In this document: positions 22,566 to 63,575 of the stretch, piece by piece
Numbering within the stretch: position 1 is the first letter of the stretch
How the letters are laid out: every line of letters begins with the position of its first letter
NCBI RefSeq assembly: GCF_040546685.1
Contig: NZ_JBEPOH010000001.1
Location: 3,100,001 to 3,164,000, forward strand
Direction of reading: 5' to 3'
DNA length: 64,000 bases
DNA from: Variovorax sp. OAS795
GTDB taxonomy: Bacteria > Pseudomonadota > Gammaproteobacteria > Burkholderiales > Burkholderiaceae_C
Made by a program: the position numbers and the translations under genes
The notes under the pieces: model-generated
What the model saw: the letters and a program-made list of their open reading frames with translations, nothing else
What the model was told of the DNA's origin: nothing
Database searches by the model: none

Positions 22566-22596
22566 ATGCCCCGCTACCTTTTGAGTAGCGGGGCAT
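22566..22596 (-). terminator. Terminator downstream of tRNA-Asn site
   Basis: A perfect 12-bp stem (ATGCCCCGCTAC) with a 7-base loop. On the minus strand it is followed by TTTCGTTTT. It lies 22 bases beyond the tRNA-Asn 3' end and was probably the host tRNA terminator. Confidence 0.8.
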
Positions 22597-22618
22597 CCAG
22601 AGGCCTTGCGGCTTGTAG

Positions 22619-22667
22619 TGGCTCCTCGACCTGGGCTCGAACCAGGGACCTACGGATTAACAGTCCG
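22619..22667 (-). other. Prophage attachment site: 3' part of tRNA-Asn(GTT)
   Basis: On the minus strand this reads as tRNA-Asn from the anticodon stem (CGGACTGTTAATCCG, anticodon GTT) through the T arm (GGTTCGAGCC) to the terminal GGAGCCA. The sequence upstream of it does not continue as a D arm or 5' acceptor strand, so the tRNA is only a 49-bp 3' copy. This is the usual product of phage integration into a tRNA gene. The intact tRNA should lie at the other end of the element, beyond this window. Confidence 0.85.
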
Positions 22668-22806
22668 GGAGTGCTTCGAGGCTCCAGACCGCATGCTTGC
22701 TCGATTTTCGCCCTCGCAACGCCAAAGTATTTCGGCGGATCAGCCCCTTGGAACTGCCTAGTGTTCGTGCAAATGCAGGGGCGAAACTACTGGATATTTG
22801 GCACAT

Positions 22807-33210: not shown

Positions 33211-34983
33211 ATGGCTGCATCGACGTACTTGAGCGGAATCGCTCTAGCAAACTATCGCGGCGTTGGCGACGAAGTTGCCTATGTCGGGCCCTTTCAGCGG
33301 TTCAACTTTTTTGTCGGTCCCAACAATGTTGGCAAGTCGACAATGTTGAACTACATCGCGCGCCACCTTCGGCCATTGGTCACAGACCCCTTGCTCGATA
33401 AAAAGGGGACCATCGCTCTGGGACCGCTCGACAAGAACATCTCGAATCCAGAAGGTACCGTAATTCTGGGCATCGGAGTGCCGCTAGCTAGTGGCAACGC
33501 AACAATCGACGCGCTGCTGCCGGAGCGAAGCCCCTATGCAAAGCTCGCCCGGGACTTTCTCGCCACATATCAGCGTGACGGAATGCTCTGGTTCACGCGC
33601 TCTAACGAGCGAAACAGAATTCTCGAACCGATCAAAGCCACGTTCAAGTTGACTGAGTTTCTGAGGGCACACGATTCGCGCCTGGTGAGCGAGTTGTGGA
33701 GCCAGCTGACGAATCAACGAGGTGGGGGGCAGGAGACGTGGGTTCGCGAAATTGCAAATCGTATTTTCTCCACCATCCCGGTAAGCCTCCCTGAAATTGC
33801 GTTGATCCCTGCTATCCGCGAAGTATCGGCAAAAGGCGAAGTCTTTGCCGACTGGTCTGGACGAGGATTGATAGAGGAGCTTGCGCGGCACCAAGACCCT
33901 GACTACAACGAGCAGCACAAACGCGTCAAGTTCAACGACATCAACGCCTTCCTGAAGGCCGTGACTGACAATGCATCAGCCGAGATACGAGTTCCGCACG
34001 ATAGAGAGCACATTATTGTTCACATGGACGGGAAGCAGCTCCCACTGAGCGCTCTAGGAACCGGGATTCACGAAGTGATCATGCTTGCAGCATCGTGTAC
34101 GCTGCTGCAACAACAGATCATCTGTATCGAAGAACCTGAGATTCACCTTCACCCGCTTTTGCAGCGCCGGCTTGTGAAATATTTGGGCGAGCACACGACC
34201 AATCAGTACTTCGTTGCCACACATTCGGCGAGCGTCATCGATGCCATCGACGCCGCAGTTTTTCATGTGTCCAATCGGGAAGGTAACACGTCGATCGAAT
34301 CTGCAGTGACGTCCTCTAGCAGATTTCAAGTATGCAAAGACTTGGGCTACCGAGCTTCGGATTTGCTCCAGGCAAACGCAATCGTTTGGGTGGAAGGGCC
34401 ATCCGATCGAATCTACATCAAGCATTGGATCGGGGCGCTTGCACCAGATCTGCAAGAAGGCATCGACTTCTCCGTGATGTTCTACGGCGGGCGGCTGCTA
34501 AGCCACTTGAGCGCGAATGACGAAGAGGGAGAGAAAGATGTCGAAGCCCTGATCGCGGTGCGCCGGCTGAACCGGAACCTCTATGTTGTCCTTGACAGTG
34601 ACAAGGCTCACGTCGACGCATCGGTGAATGCTACGAAGCTACGCATTCTGTCTGAACTCGATGACGGCCGCAGCAGAGGCTGGTTGACTGAAGGCAGGGA
34701 GATCGAGAACTACGTACCGAAGGAGTTGATGACCGCAGCACTCCAACGAGTCTATGGTGATCGTTTCGCAAGCCGTTTAAAGACGGGCCAGTTTGACCAC
34801 GTCCTTCCGTTTAAACGAGCTGACGGGACGAAGCTCGATAGGGTGGACAAAGTCGCGGTGGCATCCGCAGTTTGCTTCGAACCTGCGGACCTCAACGTTT
34901 TGGACCTTCGCATTCGTATTAACGAACTCGTTACCCTGATTCGTGAGGCGGGTCACGGTCCATCATTCAGTCGCAGCGATTAA
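33211..34983 (+). CDS. OLD-family ATP-dependent endonuclease (AAA ATPase plus TOPRIM)
   Basis: 590 residues. ABC-type ATPase: Walker A GPNNVGKST (36-44), signature LSALGTGIHEV (about 279-289), Walker B with E307-E308 (IICIEEPE) and the D-loop/H region FVATHSA. TOPRIM nuclease: E395 (VWVEGPSDR) and D462-x-D464 (VVLDSDK). P2 Old, with the same architecture, kills recBC cells and blocks lambda. Lower GC than neighbours suggests separate acquisition. It forms a plus-strand cargo cluster with the protease gene 74 bases downstream. Confidence 0.88.
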   Translation: MAASTYLSGIALANYRGVGDEVAYVGPFQRFNFFVGPNNVGKSTMLNYIARHLRPLVTDPLLDKKGTIALGPLDKNISNPEGTVILGIGVPLASGNATIDALLPERSPYAKLARDFLATYQRDGMLWFTRSNERNRILEPIKATFKLTEFLRAHDSRLVSELWSQLTNQRGGGQETWVREIANRIFSTIPVSLPEIALIPAIREVSAKGEVFADWSGRGLIEELARHQDPDYNEQHKRVKFNDINAFLKAVTDNASAEIRVPHDREHIIVHMDGKQLPLSALGTGIHEVIMLAASCTLLQQQIICIEEPEIHLHPLLQRRLVKYLGEHTTNQYFVATHSASVIDAIDAAVFHVSNREGNTSIESAVTSSSRFQVCKDLGYRASDLLQANAIVWVEGPSDRIYIKHWIGALAPDLQEGIDFSVMFYGGRLLSHLSANDEEGEKDVEALIAVRRLNRNLYVVLDSDKAHVDASVNATKLRILSELDDGRSRGWLTEGREIENYVPKELMTAALQRVYGDRFASRLKTGQFDHVLPFKRADGTKLDRVDKVAVASAVCFEPADLNVLDLRIRINELVTLIREAGHGPSFSRSD

Positions 34984-35057
34984 CTGCAGCATGTGCCCTA
35001 GAAACCTTCAGCATTGCGCTGCCAGATGGCTGCAGCTAACTGCTCACGCCCGGCTCG

Positions 35058-35990
35058 ATGCATGCCCCGTCTATGAACACGTACATCCACCCTATTACTC
35101 AGCTTGTGCATAGCACGGTCCGCATCGTCTGCAGCAACGCTGCGAATGAAATGTCTTTTGGTTCAGGGTACATCTGCGCCTTTAACCGCAAGGACGACGC
35201 GGGGATTCCCTGCATCGTTACTAACAAGCATGTGGTGCGTGGGGCAGTGACCGGAGTATTTCATCTCACGAGACGCAACGCTAACGGAACACCCGATCTA
35301 GAAAATCACGAAGCTGTGACCGTAAGAAATATTGGGCAATACTGCATACCTCATCCTGATCCACGGATCGATCTGGTCGCCGTTCCCATCGGCGCTATTT
35401 TGAACAGCGCGCAGAAAGACGATAAAAACTATCATATTGTGCAGATCAGCATGGAGACTTTGGCCACTCCTGAATTGCTCGATTCACTTCCACACATGGA
35501 AGAGATTGTCATGATCGGGTATCCGAACGGGCTATGGGATGAGCGCCATAATCTTCCAATCATCCGGAAGGGAATAACAGCTACACATCCCAAGCTGCGA
35601 CTCAACGGAAAGCCGGAGTTCCTGATAGATGCAGCGTGCTTCCCCGGGTCGTCCGGATCTCCGGTTTTTCTCGCGAACATCGGGAGCTATGTCGATTCGA
35701 ATGGCGCCTTGTGCGCGGGCAGCAGAGTGGCTTTGCTCGGGACTTTATACGCCGGACCTCAACACACCACCAAAGGGGAGATAGTCGTGGTGGACGTCCC
35801 CACGGACACCAAGTCGATCGCGGTCGGCACGATCCCGAACAATCTAGGCTATGTTATTCAGGCGAGCGAACTCCGAACGCTTGAAGAAGAGGTCATCAGA
35901 ACGCTCGTGACCAGCCGGGTAGCGAGGAATTCGCCGTGCCCGTGCCAGAGCGGTAAACGATTTAAAGAATGCTGCGGCGTTCTTTCGTAG
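35058..35990 (+). CDS. Trypsin-like serine protease with C-terminal SEC-C zinc motif
   Basis: 310 residues, no signal peptide, so probably cytoplasmic. The triad is H58 (VTNKHVV), D105 (RIDLVAV) and S199 (FPGSSGSPVF). The last 20 residues hold a SEC-C zinc motif, SPCPCQSGKRFKECC (C294, C296, C305, C306), the module that links SecA and many accessory proteins to partners. The pairing of such a protease with an OLD-like nuclease in a prophage suggests a defence module in which the protease acts as effector or switch. An alternative start is ATG 35073. Confidence 0.82.
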   Translation: MHAPSMNTYIHPITQLVHSTVRIVCSNAANEMSFGSGYICAFNRKDDAGIPCIVTNKHVVRGAVTGVFHLTRRNANGTPDLENHEAVTVRNIGQYCIPHPDPRIDLVAVPIGAILNSAQKDDKNYHIVQISMETLATPELLDSLPHMEEIVMIGYPNGLWDERHNLPIIRKGITATHPKLRLNGKPEFLIDAACFPGSSGSPVFLANIGSYVDSNGALCAGSRVALLGTLYAGPQHTTKGEIVVVDVPTDTKSIAVGTIPNNLGYVIQASELRTLEEEVIRTLVTSRVARNSPCPCQSGKRFKECCGVLS

Positions 35991-36096
35991 ATCTGCAAAC
36001 TCAGTCGATGCCAGACCGCGAGCGCTTCGCTAGGCGGAGACGTAGTGCAGATCGCCCTCATGGGTCTGGTCGACGTGCGCGCCATCGTCCAGTCGC

Positions 36097-36125
36097 TTGC
36101 ACTAGTCCCAATTTGGGACTATACT
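36097..36125 (+). promoter_or_regulatory. Promoter and operator of higBA
   Basis: TTGCAC (36097-36102) and TATACT (36120-36125) are 17 bases apart, a good sigma-70 promoter. The spacer holds the 19-bp perfect palindrome TAGTCCCAATTTGGGACTA (36103-36121), the expected site of the toxin-antitoxin autorepressor. Confidence 0.75.
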
Positions 36126-36133
36126 CACTTCCA

Positions 36134-36445
36134 ATGCACGTAGTCGCAAATTCCAACCTGATCGCCTTCTACCAGGACCCGAGCTACCGTGATGCCGAAC
36201 CCGGTCTGAAGGCATGGTACGAAGAGGCGAAGAATGCGAAGTGGACGACCCCAGCCGTGGTGAAGGCCCAGTACGCCAACGCCAGCATCATTGCGAACAA
36301 CCGCGTGGTCTTCAACATCAAGGGCAACGACTACCGCCTGATCGTCGCCATCGCCTACAAGATGCAGTACGTGTTCATCAAGTTCGTCGGCACGCACGCT
36401 CAATACGATGCGATCGATGCCGCAACCGTTGACCAGTTCAGGTAA
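36134..36445 (+). CDS. higB: HigB-type mRNA interferase toxin
   Basis: 103 residues with the HigB pattern AEPGLKAWYEEAKNAKW near the start, then VFNIKGNDYRLIVAIAY and YVFIKFVGTHAQYD. It cleaves mRNA at the ribosome when free. Toxin before antitoxin is the normal hig order. The start lies 9 bases after the -10 box, so the leader is very short. Confidence 0.88.
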   Translation: MHVVANSNLIAFYQDPSYRDAEPGLKAWYEEAKNAKWTTPAVVKAQYANASIIANNRVVFNIKGNDYRLIVAIAYKMQYVFIKFVGTHAQYDAIDAATVDQFR

Positions 36446-55578: not shown

Positions 55579-57357
55579 ATGTCTTCAAGCCATGCCGACT
55601 CAGATACGCCCGTGGCGCCGGTCGCCGAAAGGCGCCGGACTGCACGCCACCTCTATTGGCAAGGGTGGCGGATTTCGTCCATCGCGGAGTTCCTTGGAGA
55701 ACCCCGGACGACTTTGCACGGGTGGAAGGATGCCGAGCAATGGGACAAGGCGCAACCCATCGAGCGCGTCGAAGGGGCACTTGAAACCCGGCTGGTGCAG
55801 CTGATCGCGAAAGAGCCGAAGACCGGCGGCGACTTCAAGGAGATCGACCTGCTCGGCCGGCAGATCGAGCGGCTCGCACGGGTCCACAAGTACGAGAAGA
55901 CCGGCAAGGAAGCGGACCTCAATCCGAACATCGACCGGCGCAATGCCGGGCCGAAGAAGCGGCCTTCGCGCAATGACGTCAATGACGAGCAGGCGGCCCA
56001 GCTCGAGGAGGCCTTCCGCGACTCGCTTTTCGGCCACCAGAAGGTCTGGTTCCGCAACAGCCACGAGCGCACGCGCATGGTGCTCAAGAGCCGGCAGATC
56101 GGCGCTACCTGGTACTTCGCCCGCGAGGCCTTGCTGGATGCGATCAAGACGGGCCGCAACCAGATTTTCCTCAGCGCGAGCAAGGCGCAGGCGCACATCT
56201 TCAAGCAGTACATCGTGCAGTTCGCGCACGAGGCCTGCGGGGTCGACCTGGCCGGCGATCCGATCATCCTGGCAAACGGCGCGCACCTGTACTTCCTCGG
56301 CACCAATGCGCGCACGGCGCAGGGCTACCACGGCAACTTCTACTTCGACGAATTCTTCTGGACGCACCGCTTCGAGGAGCTGAACAAGGTTGCGAGCGGC
56401 ATGGCGATGCACAAGCAGTGGCGCAAGACCTACTTCAGCACGCCCAGCTCGATCCAGCATGCGGCCTTTGCCTACTGGAACGGGGACCGCTTCAACAAGC
56501 GCCGGCCGAAGGACCAGCGCGTGCTGCTGGATCTGTCGCACGACCGGCTCGCCGGCGGCTTCACGGGCGAAGACAAGGTGTGGCGCAACATCGTCACGAT
56601 CCTGGACGCGGAGGCGGGCGGCTGCGACCTGTTCGACATCGACGAGCTGCGGCTCGAGTACAACTCGGACGAGTTTGCCAACCTGCTGATGTGCGAGTTC
56701 ATCGACGACACGCAGTCGGTGTTCCCCATGTCGGAGCTGCAGGGCTGCATGGTCGATTCATGGGTGGACTGGGCCGAGTTCTACAAGCCGTTCACCGCGC
56801 GCCCGTACGGCTACCGCCCGGTGTGGGTGGGCTACGACCCTTCGCACACCGGCGACACGGCCGGCTGCGTGGTGTTGGCGCCGCCCGAGAAGCCCGGCGG
56901 CAAGTTCCGCGTGCTCGAGCGCCACCAGTGGCGCGGGCTCGACTTCGAAGCGCAGGCGGAAGCGATCCGGCAGATCACGCTTCGCTACAACGTCACGTTC
57001 ATCGGCGTGGACACGACCGGGTTGGGGCAGGGCGTCTACCAGCTCGTGACCAAGTTCTTTCCCGCGGCGAAGTCGATCAACTATTCGGTGGAAGTGAAGA
57101 CGCGCCTGGTGCTCAAGGCGAAGAACGTCATCGGCAAAGGGCGCCTCGAGTTCGACGCCGGCTGGACGGACCTGGCGCACGCCTTCCTCGCTATCCGGCG
57201 AACGCTCACGGCCAGCGGCCGGAACGTCACCTTCGACGCCGGCCGGAATGAGGAGACCGGCCACGCCGACCTCGCATGGGCCTGCATGCATGCCCTCGAC
57301 AACGAGCCTCTCGAGGGCCTCAACGCCGCCAACAGCGGCTTCATGGAGATTTCCTGA
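55579..57357 (+). CDS. P: Terminase large subunit (ATPase) P
   Basis: 592 residues. N-terminal helix-turn-helix (about 22-52, WRISSIAEFLGEPRTTLHGWK region), ATPase with SRQIGATW (171-178) and FYFDEFFW as Walker B, then an RNase H-like nuclease part (GYDPSHTGDTAG). Packages DNA from cos. Stop overlaps Q start (TGATG). Confidence 0.94.
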   Translation: MSSSHADSDTPVAPVAERRRTARHLYWQGWRISSIAEFLGEPRTTLHGWKDAEQWDKAQPIERVEGALETRLVQLIAKEPKTGGDFKEIDLLGRQIERLARVHKYEKTGKEADLNPNIDRRNAGPKKRPSRNDVNDEQAAQLEEAFRDSLFGHQKVWFRNSHERTRMVLKSRQIGATWYFAREALLDAIKTGRNQIFLSASKAQAHIFKQYIVQFAHEACGVDLAGDPIILANGAHLYFLGTNARTAQGYHGNFYFDEFFWTHRFEELNKVASGMAMHKQWRKTYFSTPSSIQHAAFAYWNGDRFNKRRPKDQRVLLDLSHDRLAGGFTGEDKVWRNIVTILDAEAGGCDLFDIDELRLEYNSDEFANLLMCEFIDDTQSVFPMSELQGCMVDSWVDWAEFYKPFTARPYGYRPVWVGYDPSHTGDTAGCVVLAPPEKPGGKFRVLERHQWRGLDFEAQAEAIRQITLRYNVTFIGVDTTGLGQGVYQLVTKFFPAAKSINYSVEVKTRLVLKAKNVIGKGRLEFDAGWTDLAHAFLAIRRTLTASGRNVTFDAGRNEETGHADLAWACMHALDNEPLEGLNAANSGFMEIS

Positions 57358-58376
57358 TGGACACGACGACTACCCCCGCCAACAACCCGGCTCGGATGGA
57401 AGCCTTCAGCTTCGGCGACCCGACGCCGGTGATGGACCGGCGCGAGCTGCTCGACTACATCGAGTGCTGGATGAACGGCCGCTGGTACGAGCCGCCGATC
57501 AGCCTGGAAGGCCTGGCGCGCTCCTTCCGCGCCAGCACGCACCACAGCAGCTCGATCTACTTCAAGCGCAACATCCTGTTGAGCACCTTCGTGCCGCACA
57601 AGTTGTTCGACCGGGCGACCTTCAGTGCCTATGCGCTGGATTTTCTGATCTTCGGCAACGCGTACCTCGAGCGGCGCGACTCGATGACGCGCCGCGCCGT
57701 GGGCCTGAAACACGCGCTCGCGAAGTACATGCGCCGCGGCGCCGACCTGGACACCTATTTCTTCGTGCGCGGGTGGAAGGACGAGCACGAGTTCAAGGCC
57801 GGCAGTGTGTTCCACATGCGTGAGGCGGACATCAACCAGGAGGTGTACGGCCTGCCGGAGTACCTAAGTGCGCTGCAGTCGGCCTGGCTGAACGAGAGCG
57901 CCACGCTGTTCCGCCGCCGCTACTACAACAACGGCAGCCACGCCGGCTTCATCCTGTACATCAGCGATCCTGCGCAACAGCAGGACGACATCGATGCCAT
58001 GCGCACCGCGCTCAAGGAGAGCAAGGGGCCAGGCAACTTCCGCAACCTGTTCCTCTACTCGCCGAACGGAAAGAAGGACGGTGTGCAGCTGATCCCGGTC
58101 AGCGAAGTGGCTGCCAAGGACGAGTTCTTCAACATCAAGAACGTGAGCCGCGACGACGTGCTCGCCGCCCATCGCGTCCCGCCGCAGCTGATGGGCATCG
58201 TGCCGAGCAACACGGGCGGCTTCGGCGCCGTGCTGCCCGCGGCTCAGGTCTTCGCGCGCAACGAGATCAAGCCGCTGCAGGACAGGTTTCGGGAGATCAA
58301 TGAGTGGATGGGGGAGGAGGTGGTGCGGTTTACGGACTACGAGGTGCCGACGGGTGAGGCGGCTGCCGCACCGTGA
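57357..58376 (+). CDS. Q: Portal protein Q
   Basis: 339 residues; FSFGDPTPVMDRRELLDYIECW and HHSSSIYFKRN are gpQ marks. Forms the capsid portal. The 58377-58562 stretch after it shows no gene. Confidence 0.94.
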   Translation: MDTTTTPANNPARMEAFSFGDPTPVMDRRELLDYIECWMNGRWYEPPISLEGLARSFRASTHHSSSIYFKRNILLSTFVPHKLFDRATFSAYALDFLIFGNAYLERRDSMTRRAVGLKHALAKYMRRGADLDTYFFVRGWKDEHEFKAGSVFHMREADINQEVYGLPEYLSALQSAWLNESATLFRRRYYNNGSHAGFILYISDPAQQQDDIDAMRTALKESKGPGNFRNLFLYSPNGKKDGVQLIPVSEVAAKDEFFNIKNVSRDDVLAAHRVPPQLMGIVPSNTGGFGAVLPAAQVFARNEIKPLQDRFREINEWMGEEVVRFTDYEVPTGEAAAAP

Positions 58377-58562: not shown

Positions 58563-60035
58563 CTATCGCTTAGGCCGCACCCCACCCTTGCGGAGCATTT
58601 TTGCTGCAACTCGGTATATGTCCGGGATGTTGATTCGTCCGTCTGCTCGGCGCTCTGCCACTCCGATTCGAAGCAATGCCTTCAAAATTGCTGCAGGTTG
58701 ATTGCTGTCACCTTCGCTGAATTCAATAGGCTCAAGATACTGCCCTTGCGAGTGCGAAATATCTGCAATGGTGCCCGACTCCTGCCAACGTGAGTACAGA
58801 TCTTCCGCACGGCAGGGTACCTGCTGGTCGGCGAGAGGCTCAATCACGCTGTCAATCCAGTTGTATTCCTCCTTGAGCTGTCGGAGCCTGAGCTCCGAAG
58901 CGGCTTGGATTCCGGCCCGAAGCCCGGCAGGAGAAATGGCGAAGCCCGCGTCTGCGGTGGAACTTCGATAAAGGGACGCCTGCCTAACCGCTTCCAAGAA
59001 TGTTCGAGGACTTACTCTGTTGTATGCATCTGCGAGGTGTTTATGCAGCCACGTATAAGTTCGGCCTTTAGATGCGCTGGCACCCATGTACGGGCCGGCT
59101 AGTTCCACGAACACTTGAGCTTGGGCCGATTCTGAATCTTTCAAAGCAGCAGGTAGCCCGATCTGAAATACGTCGCGAATCGCAATCGAGGTAGCGCGCT
59201 CCACGAGCTTCACGAATGTGTTGCCAGCATGCACGTCGTTGGCCAGCAGCGTGTAAAGCAGACCAAACAGGTCTCGATGCTCCCACGTCAAGTCCACTCT
59301 TGCTCCAGCGCTTAAAAGCTTGGAGGCATCAGGGAATGCCGCGACGCCCGCGTCTTCAGCTTGGTCAACACGTAGAAAGATTTTTGGTTTGATGAACTTA
59401 TACGTGCGCAGGGCAAGCGTCACCAACAGCAAAGCACGCGTTCGCTCACGAATTTGTTGCCAATCTCTTCCTAGACGATCAAGTGCGTCGAACAGGACAA
59501 CGACCCTGACGCCTTCAACGCGCAGCGCTTCGTCGGCTTTCCTTAGGTACTGCTGTGCTCGGGCGGCATCCTGTTCAACCCAATGGACCAATCCTTCTGG
59601 GCCACGAAGCATAGTCGGAAGCCCCATCGGAACGAATTGGCTCACCGCTCGGAGGAACACGGCGCGCCACACCTTCTCTGGCTCATGCCCATCTGTTTCG
59701 ATAAGGTCGTCAAGCTCTTCTCGACTGGGAGCGCCGTTTGCGTCCGTATCAACACCGGCGAAGCCCAAGCCTACCTTGCATTTGTCGAGGTTGAGGCGTC
59801 GATAACTTTGCGATACGAAGGTCCGCGTGTCGTCGTTCAGAAGCGTTGCTGACCAAAAACTCTTACCAGTCCCTCGACCTCCGACCACTAGTACCCGTTC
59901 GGGATCCAACGCAGCTTCGTGACCCTCTGGAGTGTAGATCTGCTGCAATTGCGGAGGACTTACTGCATCATGGCTTGGCGCAGGCGTGAGTCGCGACAGC
60001 GCTGCTCGGAGTTCGTCGATTTCTTCAGCGATCAT
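58563..60035 (-). CDS. P-loop ATPase of unknown function (third gene of cargo operon)
   Basis: 490 residues. Walker A GGRGTGKS (52-59), a Walker B-like VRVVVLFDALDRLG (about 173-186), a long helical middle and a C-terminal winged-helix-like end (PAAILKALLRIGVAERRADGRINIPDIYRVAAK). STAND/KAP-type NTPases of this shape often act in defence. 28 bases behind the ParA-like gene, same strand. The family is not one I can name. Confidence 0.75.
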   Translation of the reverse strand: MIAEEIDELRAALSRLTPAPSHDAVSPPQLQQIYTPEGHEAALDPERVLVVGGRGTGKSFWSATLLNDDTRTFVSQSYRRLNLDKCKVGLGFAGVDTDANGAPSREELDDLIETDGHEPEKVWRAVFLRAVSQFVPMGLPTMLRGPEGLVHWVEQDAARAQQYLRKADEALRVEGVRVVVLFDALDRLGRDWQQIRERTRALLLVTLALRTYKFIKPKIFLRVDQAEDAGVAAFPDASKLLSAGARVDLTWEHRDLFGLLYTLLANDVHAGNTFVKLVERATSIAIRDVFQIGLPAALKDSESAQAQVFVELAGPYMGASASKGRTYTWLHKHLADAYNRVSPRTFLEAVRQASLYRSSTADAGFAISPAGLRAGIQAASELRLRQLKEEYNWIDSVIEPLADQQVPCRAEDLYSRWQESGTIADISHSQGQYLEPIEFSEGDSNQPAAILKALLRIGVAERRADGRINIPDIYRVAAKMLRKGGVRPKR

Positions 60036-60063
60036 GTCTTGAGGCCGTTAATATTGTCGGGAC

Positions 60064-61410
60064 TCACGCGGGGATGAGCCTATCTAGTAGCGCTGCGTAT
60101 GTCCGCTCGTAGAGTGCGGCTGAAAGTTGGGACGGAGCAGACAGCGGATCGAATTCAAAGTAGTTGGAGTCTCGAAGGATCGGCACTGCGTAGTGCGGCG
60201 CTTCAACGTCGTCCAGAGAAAATTCTGGCATCGTGACCACACCTTCTCCTGATTGATCAAGTACAGGACTGCTTGAGTCCTCTCCGAGTGGAATGTCCCG
60301 ATAAAGAAACTCTCGAAAGAGGTCGTGTGCCCGGTCGCGGAAAGCCTGCTGGCGCTCGGCCAGAGGGGAGGCTTTCGCATGAACCATCTTCAGCCGGACG
60401 AGCCAGTCGTCCTGGAAGTTGCGCGGCGAACGTGCGAGATGGGCTAACAAGTATCTGTACCCGGCAAAAGTCTGCGGCGTGTCTTCGCCAAACAGCAGGA
60501 CTTGCGCGCCCAAACCCAGCAACGCAGCAGCCGTTGATTCATTCAGACCGGCTCGCACATCGACCAGAACGGCGTCGTACTGTTTTGATCCCGCGATCGT
60601 ATCGACGAGCCATCTTGTTTGATCAGAGAAACTCGCCAAAGCTCCATCCGCTGTAGATGATTCGACATAGGCTCGCGCAAGCTTCGCCAAAACGTTGGCC
60701 GGATGCTCTTGGGCCGTTGCTCCAACGGCTGGCACTACATCGATAAGTCCCTTGCCCTTGCCGAAAGGGCTGGGTGCCATCATGTCAAAAAGGAAGCTGT
60801 CATCGAAATTGCCCAGCGAACGTTCGATATAGCCATCCAAAAGACCGTACGCCGGCAGTTCATTTGGTGGAAGCATCATTGCACCGATTCCGGGGGCCTC
60901 AAGGTCCAAATCAATCACCAAGACCTTCTTGCCGGCCTCTGCGAAGTGAGTTGCTGCAACCGCGAGCGCTGTGGTGCGACCAACTCCACCTTTGATGCTC
61001 GCGAAGGCATACCGAGGGGTCGGAAGACTGGAATTTGCCGGTGCAAGCAACCAGTCGGCGCCAACGATCCGTTGGTCGATCAGGTTGACGTAGAGAGATT
61101 GCCCTAGTACAGATACGGCTTCTCGGTAAGGGCGGCTCCGTTTTATTAGTCCACTAACGCCAGGACTTTGTGCGTCAGTGACCACGAAATCTTCGAGACA
61201 GTAGGGACCAGCCGCTGCGATCGCAGCTTCCGCTGCTCGTTTCAACAGGTCGTCTGGAAGGGGCTCCAAAGCAATGAACGTGAGGTGGCCCTCTGAGTTC
61301 CTCAGTATCCAACCTTTCTCGACCGTTTCGAGGCCAAGGATCTGAACCATGGCTTCCGCGAAAAGGGCCAGACTGGTGTCGAAGCGGGGCGTAACTTTTG
61401 GGTCGGTCAT
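60064..61410 (-). CDS. ParA/MinD-like ATPase with KGGVGR variant P-loop
   Basis: 448 residues. The ParA deviant Walker A is FASIKGGVGRTTALA (about 137-150): the signature Lys140 is kept but the P-loop Lys is Arg144. Then DLDLEAPGIG (167-176) and VDVRAGLNEST (switch II region). The N-terminal 135 residues are an extra domain not found in ParA. No centromere-like repeats or ParB gene are nearby, so plasmid-type partition is unlikely. ATG 61408-61410 overlaps the HEPN-like stop. Confidence 0.78.
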   Translation of the reverse strand: MTDPKVTPRFDTSLALFAEAMVQILGLETVEKGWILRNSEGHLTFIALEPLPDDLLKRAAEAAIAAAGPYCLEDFVVTDAQSPGVSGLIKRSRPYREAVSVLGQSLYVNLIDQRIVGADWLLAPANSSLPTPRYAFASIKGGVGRTTALAVAATHFAEAGKKVLVIDLDLEAPGIGAMMLPPNELPAYGLLDGYIERSLGNFDDSFLFDMMAPSPFGKGKGLIDVVPAVGATAQEHPANVLAKLARAYVESSTADGALASFSDQTRWLVDTIAGSKQYDAVLVDVRAGLNESTAAALLGLGAQVLLFGEDTPQTFAGYRYLLAHLARSPRNFQDDWLVRLKMVHAKASPLAERQQAFRDRAHDLFREFLYRDIPLGEDSSSPVLDQSGEGVVTMPEFSLDDVEAPHYAVPILRDSNYFEFDPLSAPSQLSAALYERTYAALLDRLIPA

Positions 61411-61787
61411 ATGAGCAGTCCTAGTGCGTCGTTGGCATCCGATCTCCATCGCTCTGCCTGGGCTTCGCTGATCGACCCGGTTTGGGCGTATCGCATCACG
61501 ATTTCCCAATACTGCATGAAACTTTCTCGTGCCAAGAGGCTTCGCGCAGCAGAGGCTTGACGTCCCTTTATGGCAATTCGTGCAAGTCCTCTCAAACTCG
61601 GCCAATGTTTCCACATTGCTTCTTCATCCTGTAATAAGCCGAACTCCGTTAGCTTTTGCTTGATCGCACACTCTGCTGACAGGCCAAAGTGGTAACCGGC
61701 GTTGTCAAAGCGCTTGTCGGTTAGGAGCTTGCATCCATCTGCGTAGTGCCTTTGCGCTGCAGCTCTCATATCTGTCGTGTACGCCAT
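61407..61787 (-). CDS. Small helical HEPN-like protein (first gene of cargo operon)
   Basis: 126 residues; ATG at 61785-61787, ATGA overlap with the next gene. MRAAAQRHYADGCKLLTDKR and YHFGLSAECAIKQKL resemble HEPN helical-bundle proteins, but the RNase motif R-x4-6-H is absent (MRYAQTG only). A regulator, substrate adaptor or toxin of the system is possible. Confidence 0.65.
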   Translation of the reverse strand: MAYTTDMRAAAQRHYADGCKLLTDKRFDNAGYHFGLSAECAIKQKLTEFGLLQDEEAMWKHWPSLRGLARIAIKGRQASAARSLLARESFMQYWEIVMRYAQTGSISEAQAERWRSDANDALGLLI

Positions 61788-62143: not shown

Positions 62144-62467
62144 AATCCGGTTTGGGTTCGGGGAAAGCCTGATTTCCTAATCGGGGGTCCCAAACCGGCC
62201 GCGAACCCCCGTGGCGCCTGGCGCTGAGCAGGTTAGGTTTCACCCTGATCTGACCTAACCTGAAACCTAATTTTTTCCTAAGTTGTTGATCTATATAGGG
62301 ATTTGTTTTCCGGAAGATCAGAGTCGACAACCCTGATCTGGTTAGGTTCAGATTAGGAAAAAATCAGGTTTCTCAAAACAGCCGAAACCCGCATGGATAA
62401 AGGCTTTGCGGGGTGTTTGGGCATGTCGATTAGGAAGATCAGGCTTTCCCCGAACCCTTACCGGAAT
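62144..62467. repeat. 324-bp palindromic non-coding element (MITE-like)
   Basis: Terminal arms of about 38 bp: 62154-62183 pairs with 62427-62457 with one extra base as the only change, extended by ATTCCGGT-like ends. Nested inside are CAGGTTAGGT/ACCTAACCTG (62229-62262), a 19-bp pair with one mismatch (62263-62281, 62353-62371), and two ACCCTGATCTG direct repeats (62242-62252, 62330-62340). AT-rich centre (CTATATAGGG). No open frame. Rest of 61788-62603 shows no gene. Confidence 0.7.
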
Positions 62468-62603
62468 TTTGGAGCGGAGCAACTGACGGCGCGCGACCAC
62501 ATGTCCGCGCGGATTTGGCGGACAACAAACAACCAACTGAACCGGCGCGAAGACTAGGATGACGCGGGTGCTTGGAGGCAAGCAGATAGCCCCTTGTCGC
62601 TTG

Positions 62604-62999
62604 TCAGATTGGCCGCACCTCGAAGTACGCCTCATTGGTGTCGCCCAGATCTCGGAAGCCTGCGGTCCTGGCCGCGTCGAAGGCCTTGATCCATCGGCTG
62701 GCCAGCGCCACCTCGTGCTTCGCAAGGTCGCTTTCACCAGACTCGCTCGCGTTCTGAAAAGCCCGGAGCGCGAGTACCACGTCATCGCCCAGTTGCCGAT
62801 CGAGCTCGCGCCGGAAGCGCTGTTCCGCGACCTTCAGCGCGTCGACGGCCGGGTAGTCCACCAAGCGCACCCTGTAGGTCACCCGGTGCACGGGCTCGAC
62901 GTCTTCGAAGCGGAATGGTGCATCTTCCTCGTGCGTGGCTAGATCCGCAGTGATCGCCTTGACCTGCACGTTCGGGGCGAAAAGTTCAGCTTGGGTCAT
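62604..62999 (-). CDS. Hypothetical protein
   Basis: 131 residues; acidic, mixed alpha/beta (VTYRVRLVDYPAVDALKVAEQRF). Overlaps the next upstream gene by 14 bases. Third of a three-gene string. Unknown family. Confidence 0.6.
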   Translation of the reverse strand: MTQAELFAPNVQVKAITADLATHEEDAPFRFEDVEPVHRVTYRVRLVDYPAVDALKVAEQRFRRELDRQLGDDVVLALRAFQNASESGESDLAKHEVALASRWIKAFDAARTAGFRDLGDTNEAYFEVRPI

Positions 63000-63333
63000 G
63001 GTTCGAATTCACAGCGTTCTGAAGCAATTGCAGAGAAAGGGATCCAGGCAGGCTGTGAACCTCGCAGTACCAGACCTGGTAGCACCACCGTCCGCCGACT
63101 TGTTCGGTTCCCGCGAAGCTGATGGTGTCGAGTGCGCACGCGACCACCTCGGGCCGCCACAGGAGGCCGATCGGCGGCGCTACATCACCGGGCCCCGAAC
63201 TCCACAAGCCGAGTTGCATCCGTCCTTCCACCGGCCGCAGCGTCAGCATCCCGGACAGCCACGGCTGGTCCACAAACTCCCGCTTGCTCAACAAGGTGCC
63301 GCCGCGGTATCGGCGACGCATCCTGACTCTCAT
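62986..63333 (-). CDS. Hypothetical protein
   Basis: 115 residues; basic start (MRVRMRRRYRGG), then a hydrophobic beta-rich part with four Trp. ATGA overlap with the upstream gene. Unknown. Confidence 0.6.
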   Translation of the reverse strand: MRVRMRRRYRGGTLLSKREFVDQPWLSGMLTLRPVEGRMQLGLWSSGPGDVAPPIGLLWRPEVVACALDTISFAGTEQVGGRWCYQVWYCEVHSLPGSLSLQLLQNAVNSNHDPS

Positions 63334-63575
63334 AGGAGCTCACTGTCGGCCTTGGGCGGCTTGGGCAGCAGGCCCGGAATCCCGTGCATCACTGCACGGA
63401 TGTGGTCGCCCGCGTTTCGATCCACGTCGCCATACAGGTCCCCGATCCTCGCGCAGCGGCCCGACACCAGATCTGCGAAGTCGAGCAATGTCGGGCGGAG
63501 TGGCTCGCCTGCGGCAAGCTCTCCTGCTCGTCGCGCCATCTGGGCGATCTCTTCTTCGATGGGAGGCTCGGGCAT
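63330..63575 (-). CDS. Hypothetical protein, first gene downstream of the LexA box
   Basis: 81 residues; acidic N-terminus (PEPPIEEEIAQMARRAGELA). Starts 36 bases from the LexA box. Unknown family. Confidence 0.6.
   Translation of the reverse strand: MPEPPIEEEIAQMARRAGELAAGEPLRPTLLDFADLVSGRCARIGDLYGDVDRNAGDHIRAVMHGIPGLLPKPPKADSELL

Follow-up and report, generated by a model that had tools for sequence, protein, structure and literature searches.

Between the portal gene of a prophage and a conserved inverted-repeat element, a 64,000-nucleotide stretch of Variovorax sp. OAS795 (contig NZ_JBEPOH010000001.1, positions 3,100,001 to 3,164,000; this whole stretch is hereafter the window, and its own numbering is used) carries an operon of three genes, A, B and C (58563..61787, minus strand), which a preliminary description had proposed as an undescribed defence system. 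What is this operon, and what could it do for the cell that carries it? Our results show that it belongs to PDC-M28, a candidate defence system of PADLOC, and that it is cargo of a P2-like prophage. PDC-M28 probably comes from a 2024 preprint by Payne and others, and it has had a name but no mechanism. New in this analysis are the predicted HEPN fold of A, the invariant residues, the arginine of B, the fusions and the genomic contexts.

The operon and its family

Gene A (126 residues; 61407..61787), for which a HEPN fold is predicted, matches the PADLOC-DB 2.0.0 model of PDC-M28A (PDLC04558, E = 6.1e-27); gene B (448 residues; 60064..61410), a MinD/ParA-type ATPase, matches that of PDC-M28B (PDLC04559, 2.7e-94); and gene C (490 residues; 58563..60035), a P-loop ATPase, matches that of PDC-M28C (PDLC04561, 7.9e-138). 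The matches are nearly full length, and the three genes are adjacent, on the minus strand and in the order A-B-C, which places the operon in PDC-M28. As PADLOC-DB holds models for exactly this gene set, the operon can no longer be called undescribed. The preliminary description had itself held that homologues known as a described system would speak against it: they are listed, as PDC-M28, but no test of that system is found in the open-access PubMed Central (PMC) papers searched. In the same papers, none names PDC-M28 or describes its mechanism, the terms KGGVGR and Sll1717 are absent too, and none joins three of the terms HEPN, MinD-like, anti-phage and ParA-like. According to the part of PMC12988326 that concerns them, the PADLOC candidates derive from a "guilt-by-embedding" approach, and most of them await validation.

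The tight coupling of the genes, as first described, is confirmed: the three frames contain no internal stop, A and B overlap by four bases (ATGA) and, by their coordinates, B and C are separated by 28 bases. A promoter scan gives no promoter-like site, against 1.4 expected from shuffles. The guanine-cytosine (GC) content is about 0.55-0.56 across the operon versus 0.63-0.71 at 52.0-58.0 kb of the window, which matches the expectation for late-acquired cargo.

A search with a profile of C gives 91 loci, 79 in genomes and 12 viral ones from IMG/VR, including the window's own copy (L081) and two near-duplicates of other loci (L085, L091). A, B and C are all detectable in 82 of them, and in 81 they lie in this order on one strand; the co-occurrence of the three families, which the preliminary description had set as a check, is thus found, and in independent or near-independent loci it exceeds what chance would give. 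Among the nine loci missing a piece, the contig ends at that place in five (L003, L014, L026, L057, L075), remnants are seen in two (L037, L068) and nothing of the missing part is seen in the other two (L032, L077). L039 resembles a deletion relic. The unit is spread over many bacterial phyla, on plasmids and chromosomes. In 185 genomes sampled from the class, strong C matches lie at six places in five genomes, and C is adjoined there by a KGGVGR ATPase above the family cut-off at all six and by A at five, the sixth lying at a contig start; one further genome (G055) gives a weak C match only. Among 398 genomes of the phylum, C is matched in 27, and in 17 of these, weak matches, G000 and G340 being set aside, A and B stand beside 17 of 19 strong C places.

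The three proteins also diverge together: in 69 rows, with the window among them, their pairwise distances rise jointly (r = 0.83, 0.87 and 0.81; maximum 0.09 in 1000 permutations), these statistics ignoring host descent. The tree of C mixes phyla, its 52 Pseudomonadota rows needing 13 changes, a pattern which would suit a mobile system without proving transfer.

The defence reading is supported by the genomic context. Three of the 13 plasmid regions that were read have a BREX type 2 operon with the three genes embedded in it: in Sphaerotilus and Candidatus Thiodictyon they separate pglX from the gene at the brxC position, and in a Streptomyces they stand between pglW and pglX. Of the other plasmid copies, one adjoins a TIR-domain gene, one is near a type III restriction gene and four are next to or near an integrase; some lie amid ordinary genes, and L230 has C without a listed A or B. 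BREX-2 proteins occur in one of the 91 loci (L038), so that BREX adjoins the system occasionally rather than as a rule.

The three proteins and their relatives

The structure prediction of A has a pLDDT of 92.4, and the fold search matches it to the four-helix HEPN fold, in support of the HEPN-like protein proposed earlier. The window's A matches neither PF05168 nor any other Pfam HEPN model, and the A profile finds nothing believable among PDB sequences. A fold search with A among viral proteins gives nothing at E <= 0.001. Conservation was read on alignment rows leaving out L001, L081, L085, L091 and fragments shorter than 95 (A), 380 (B) or 420 (C) residues. E39 and K43, which form an E-x3-K motif, and H61 are each invariant in A (71/71 rows), as is R99 (70/70), and the pair R99-Y100 is invariant as well. 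The window's A lacks the canonical Rx4-6H motif at R99, as do 63 of 70 rows; the seven others have it, and A as a canonical HEPN RNase is therefore rejected as stated. An R-x4-6-H string does occur somewhere in 61 of 71 rows, at scattered positions, most commonly at R26 (34 rows).

What A keeps is instead the pattern of the AbiV-type or HEPN-T site, in which the arginine is retained together with another conserved histidine before it and an E-x3-K/R motif. E-x3-K, H61 and R99 could thus be an alternative active site of the same kind as that of AbiV-type HEPN proteins, and both the 2hsb-type HEPN-T family and AbiV are listed among the closest known systems of A. By its PDB title, AbiV is an RNase within a two-component antiphage system, whereas the partners of A are two ATPases.

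The P-loop of B, KGGVGRT from residue 140, has the arginine in place of lysine that had been noticed from the sequence, and this replacement is found in all 79 rows. An extra N-terminal domain is also present, although somewhat shorter than the 135 residues first given: matches to the MinD-type fold begin at residue 128-130, which leaves about 127 residues by the structural model, and no Pfam family matches them. B passes the cut-off of NF047398, the KGGVGR-motif variant ATPases (167.8 versus 90 bits), and differs from FleN, MinD and ParA ATPases by its arginine P-loop and its N-terminal extension. B as a partition ATPase was considered and rejected, given its score against NF041546 (25.8 versus 180 bits) and the same arginine. 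Partition partners had been described as absent, a point at which no separate search was aimed. Three further KGGVGR ATPases above the family cut-off (L193-L195, in genomes G056, G047 and G174) lie away from PDC-M28C and probably belong to other systems.

In C, the motifs are GGRGTGKS and FDALDRLG, and the Walker A lysine K58 and the Walker B aspartate D183 are invariant (89/89 rows). C is related to the Sll1717-family P-loop ATPases of NF047389, without being a member by the rule of that model (59.2 bits, below the cut-off of 75). It had been described as a KAP/STAND-like nucleoside triphosphatase with a winged-helix end. The P-loop ATPase stands; the KAP/STAND class finds sub-threshold Pfam matches only, with AAA_16 at 22.6 versus 32.6 and NACHT at 11.7 versus 26.7 bits, and the winged helix is unsupported, the last 106 residues matching no Pfam family and no PDB sequence at an E-value better than 0.03. 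With the C profile, nothing believable is found among PDB sequences, nor is C matched in any of 50,697 phage records.

B and C are found as one frame in L080 (945 residues) and in L236 (930 residues, with A just upstream). Five C proteins, from four genomes of one genus, extend into frames of 1337-1803 residues (L231-L235), with A and B upstream in four of these loci, L234 having neither within its 16 kb. In all four fused proteins scanned (L231, L233-L235), Metallophos and NACHT domains are matched above cut-off behind C. As far as its description in PMC13092281 (DefensePredictor) extends, DS-8 is a validated single-protein system with the same pair, metallophosphatase and NACHT, in the same architecture, the comparison being one of domains only. 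By their domain content, L231-L235 are a predicted NLR-like form of PDC-M28; the window's own C has neither Metallophos nor NACHT above the Pfam cut-off and does not have the DS-8-type architecture.

In all five of the more diverged loci fetched (L237-L241), a single frame of 875-979 residues contains both a B-like part and a C-like one and is directly preceded by a small gene. These appear to be two-gene relatives, a small, partly HEPN-matching gene being followed by a KGGVGR plus Sll1717-like double ATPase. One of the small proteins (L239:5323-5781) passes PF05168 with 24.2 versus 22 bits, two fall short (19.7 and 21.2) and two have no match. When the diverged two-gene relatives are aligned with MAFFT, nine of nine rows agree at E39 and K43 and seven at R99-Y100; equivalence of their H-D/N-L motif with H61 is not supported, the two being offset by five columns by eye.

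The cargo slot of the prophage

The prophage is framed by two 73-bp direct repeats that hold most of a tRNA-Asn gene, one at 22596..22668 and the other beyond the window, at 65805-65877 on its scale (L093:7806-7878), which gives about 43.2 kb. It qualifies as P2-like by the PHROG matches of its portal, terminase, scaffold and capsid genes together with these flanking attachment-site repeats, and the IMG/VR viral contig L081 (42,761 bases) is the same prophage. The large terminase subunit gene (55579..57357, plus strand; phrog_3746, 2.8e-135) is followed by the P2-type portal gene (57276..58376, plus strand; phrog_68, 3.9e-164), which forms the left border of the slot; the operon is thus where it had been placed, in the toxin-cargo position after the portal gene.

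The right border is the inverted-repeat element (62144..62475), recognised by DNA matches in relatives, whose nested repeats have 28-bp arms that are 93% and 20-bp arms that are 95% complementary. It is common to nine portal relatives at 74-83% identity, lying 1.3-2.9 kb after the portal gene compared with 3.8 kb here, and this variable distance points to exchangeable content in between. The element may be the cos or packaging region; a pattern for the P2 cos core has no match in the window. Beyond it are three small genes, r1-r3 (62604..63575, minus strand), partly conserved in relatives, the first two without PHROG match.

Among 80 portal relatives in IMG/VR, the operon is found only in the window's own copy. 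Seven slot proteins of relatives were scanned with PADLOC, giving PD-T4-7 in L098 (3e-103), PDC-S20 in L111 (5e-85), a slot in which the element match is absent, and part of DzbB in L100 (4e-11), the other four matching nothing in PADLOC. In a separate viral contig, L084, a P2-like portal of 53% identity is immediately followed by a diverged A-B-C (about 38-40% identity), which indicates that the slot acquired PDC-M28 more than once.

Other genes of these slots and of the prophage may be mentioned. One of the four unmatched proteins (L096:9165-10517; 450 residues, GC 0.53) has a weak M48 peptidase match and could be a cargo gene not described before; the slots of L097 and L101 contain further genes of low GC (0.45 and 0.46) without family match. 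As judged by eye, a DNA adenine methylase-like gene of 256-297 residues directly follows the portal gene in L098, L099, L100, L102, L104 and L107 and is absent in the window. The same prophage also contains a second defence-like cluster (33211-36445), composed of an AAA_15/AAA_21 ATPase (P0280), which PADLOC matches at 1e-20 to 7e-15 with AriA, GajA and Old, a trypsin-like SEC-C protein (P0279; PDC-S45, 2.9e-113) and a HigB-type toxin (PD-Lambda-2_A, 2.1e-34).

A proposed mechanism and its alternatives

From its context, we hold it quite probable that the operon is a defence system in some form. Our full proposal, which is tentative and has a little less than an even chance in our estimate, is an anti-phage system in which a B-C ATPase pair gates the HEPN effector A and leads to abortive infection. 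The operon would protect the lysogen against other phages. C, as the part fused to the NACHT module in relatives, would receive the infection signal; B and C, from their fusions, would touch and form one ATP-controlled switch, in which the arginine P-loop of B would act as a slow or locked nucleotide switch, an ATP-bound clamp coupling C to A. This switch would hold A idle until infection releases it, and A would then cut RNA via E39, H61 and R99, so that the infected cell is stopped. RNases of this kind usually lead to abortive infection.

The weakest step of this proposal is A being catalytic. The rival to which we give most weight, unlikely as we consider it, is an anti-phage or anti-plasmid system acting on DNA, in which B and C would be loaded onto foreign DNA or track along it, as ParA-type ATPases bind DNA, with A as a HEPN adaptor that is catalytically dead. 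The canonical HEPN motif is missing in most A rows, a DNA-bound ParA (5u1j) is among the nearest folds of the B model, it is B and C that occur fused, and the operon can be embedded in BREX operons, which target phage DNA. An adaptor, however, would not require the invariant E39, K43, H61 and R99, and the Pfam scans reveal neither a DNA-binding nor a nuclease domain in B or C.

An addiction module is less probable still. Here A would be the toxin and B, with C, the antitoxin, maintaining the prophage with no direct anti-phage role. The low GC content of this cargo within a prophage would agree with it, and so would the MAE_18760-family HEPN genes paired in operons with ParA/Soj ATPases, which are proposed in the relevant passages of PMC3710099 to be RNase toxins with their antitoxins; as presented there, that family nevertheless keeps Rx4-6H and has no third gene. 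Furthermore, BREX embedding and fusion to a DS-8-type module indicate immunity, three conserved genes exceed the needs of a pair, and most of the family lies outside recognised viral contigs, with 12 of 91 loci in IMG/VR and none in the phage records. A partition or regulatory function in lysogeny or segregation of the prophage, rather than immunity, is very improbable: B does match the ParA-like partition family of PHROG (1.2e-09), but close prophage relatives lack the operon and have unrelated genes in the slot, and the same triad is found on plasmids and chromosomes of many phyla.

Beyond the operon itself, a HEPN effector with a KGGVGR-Sll1717-like double ATPase gate could underlie a large immune superfamily that is as yet undescribed, comprising the three-gene PDC-M28, the single-chain B-C forms, the diverged two-gene forms and the NLR-like C-metallophosphoesterase-NACHT forms, with the arginine P-loop of B as an ATP-locked clamp. 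It is a possibility towards which we do not yet lean, and we know of no other immune system with a switch of that type.

For PDC-M28, the B-C and C-metallophosphoesterase-NACHT fusions indicate likely contacts and a possible entry of the infection signal, and the invariant E39, H61 and R99 make it directly testable whether HEPN proteins with an alternative site are RNases. If they are, prophages and BREX operons would share an immune module whose switch is a MinD-type ATPase without the P-loop lysine.
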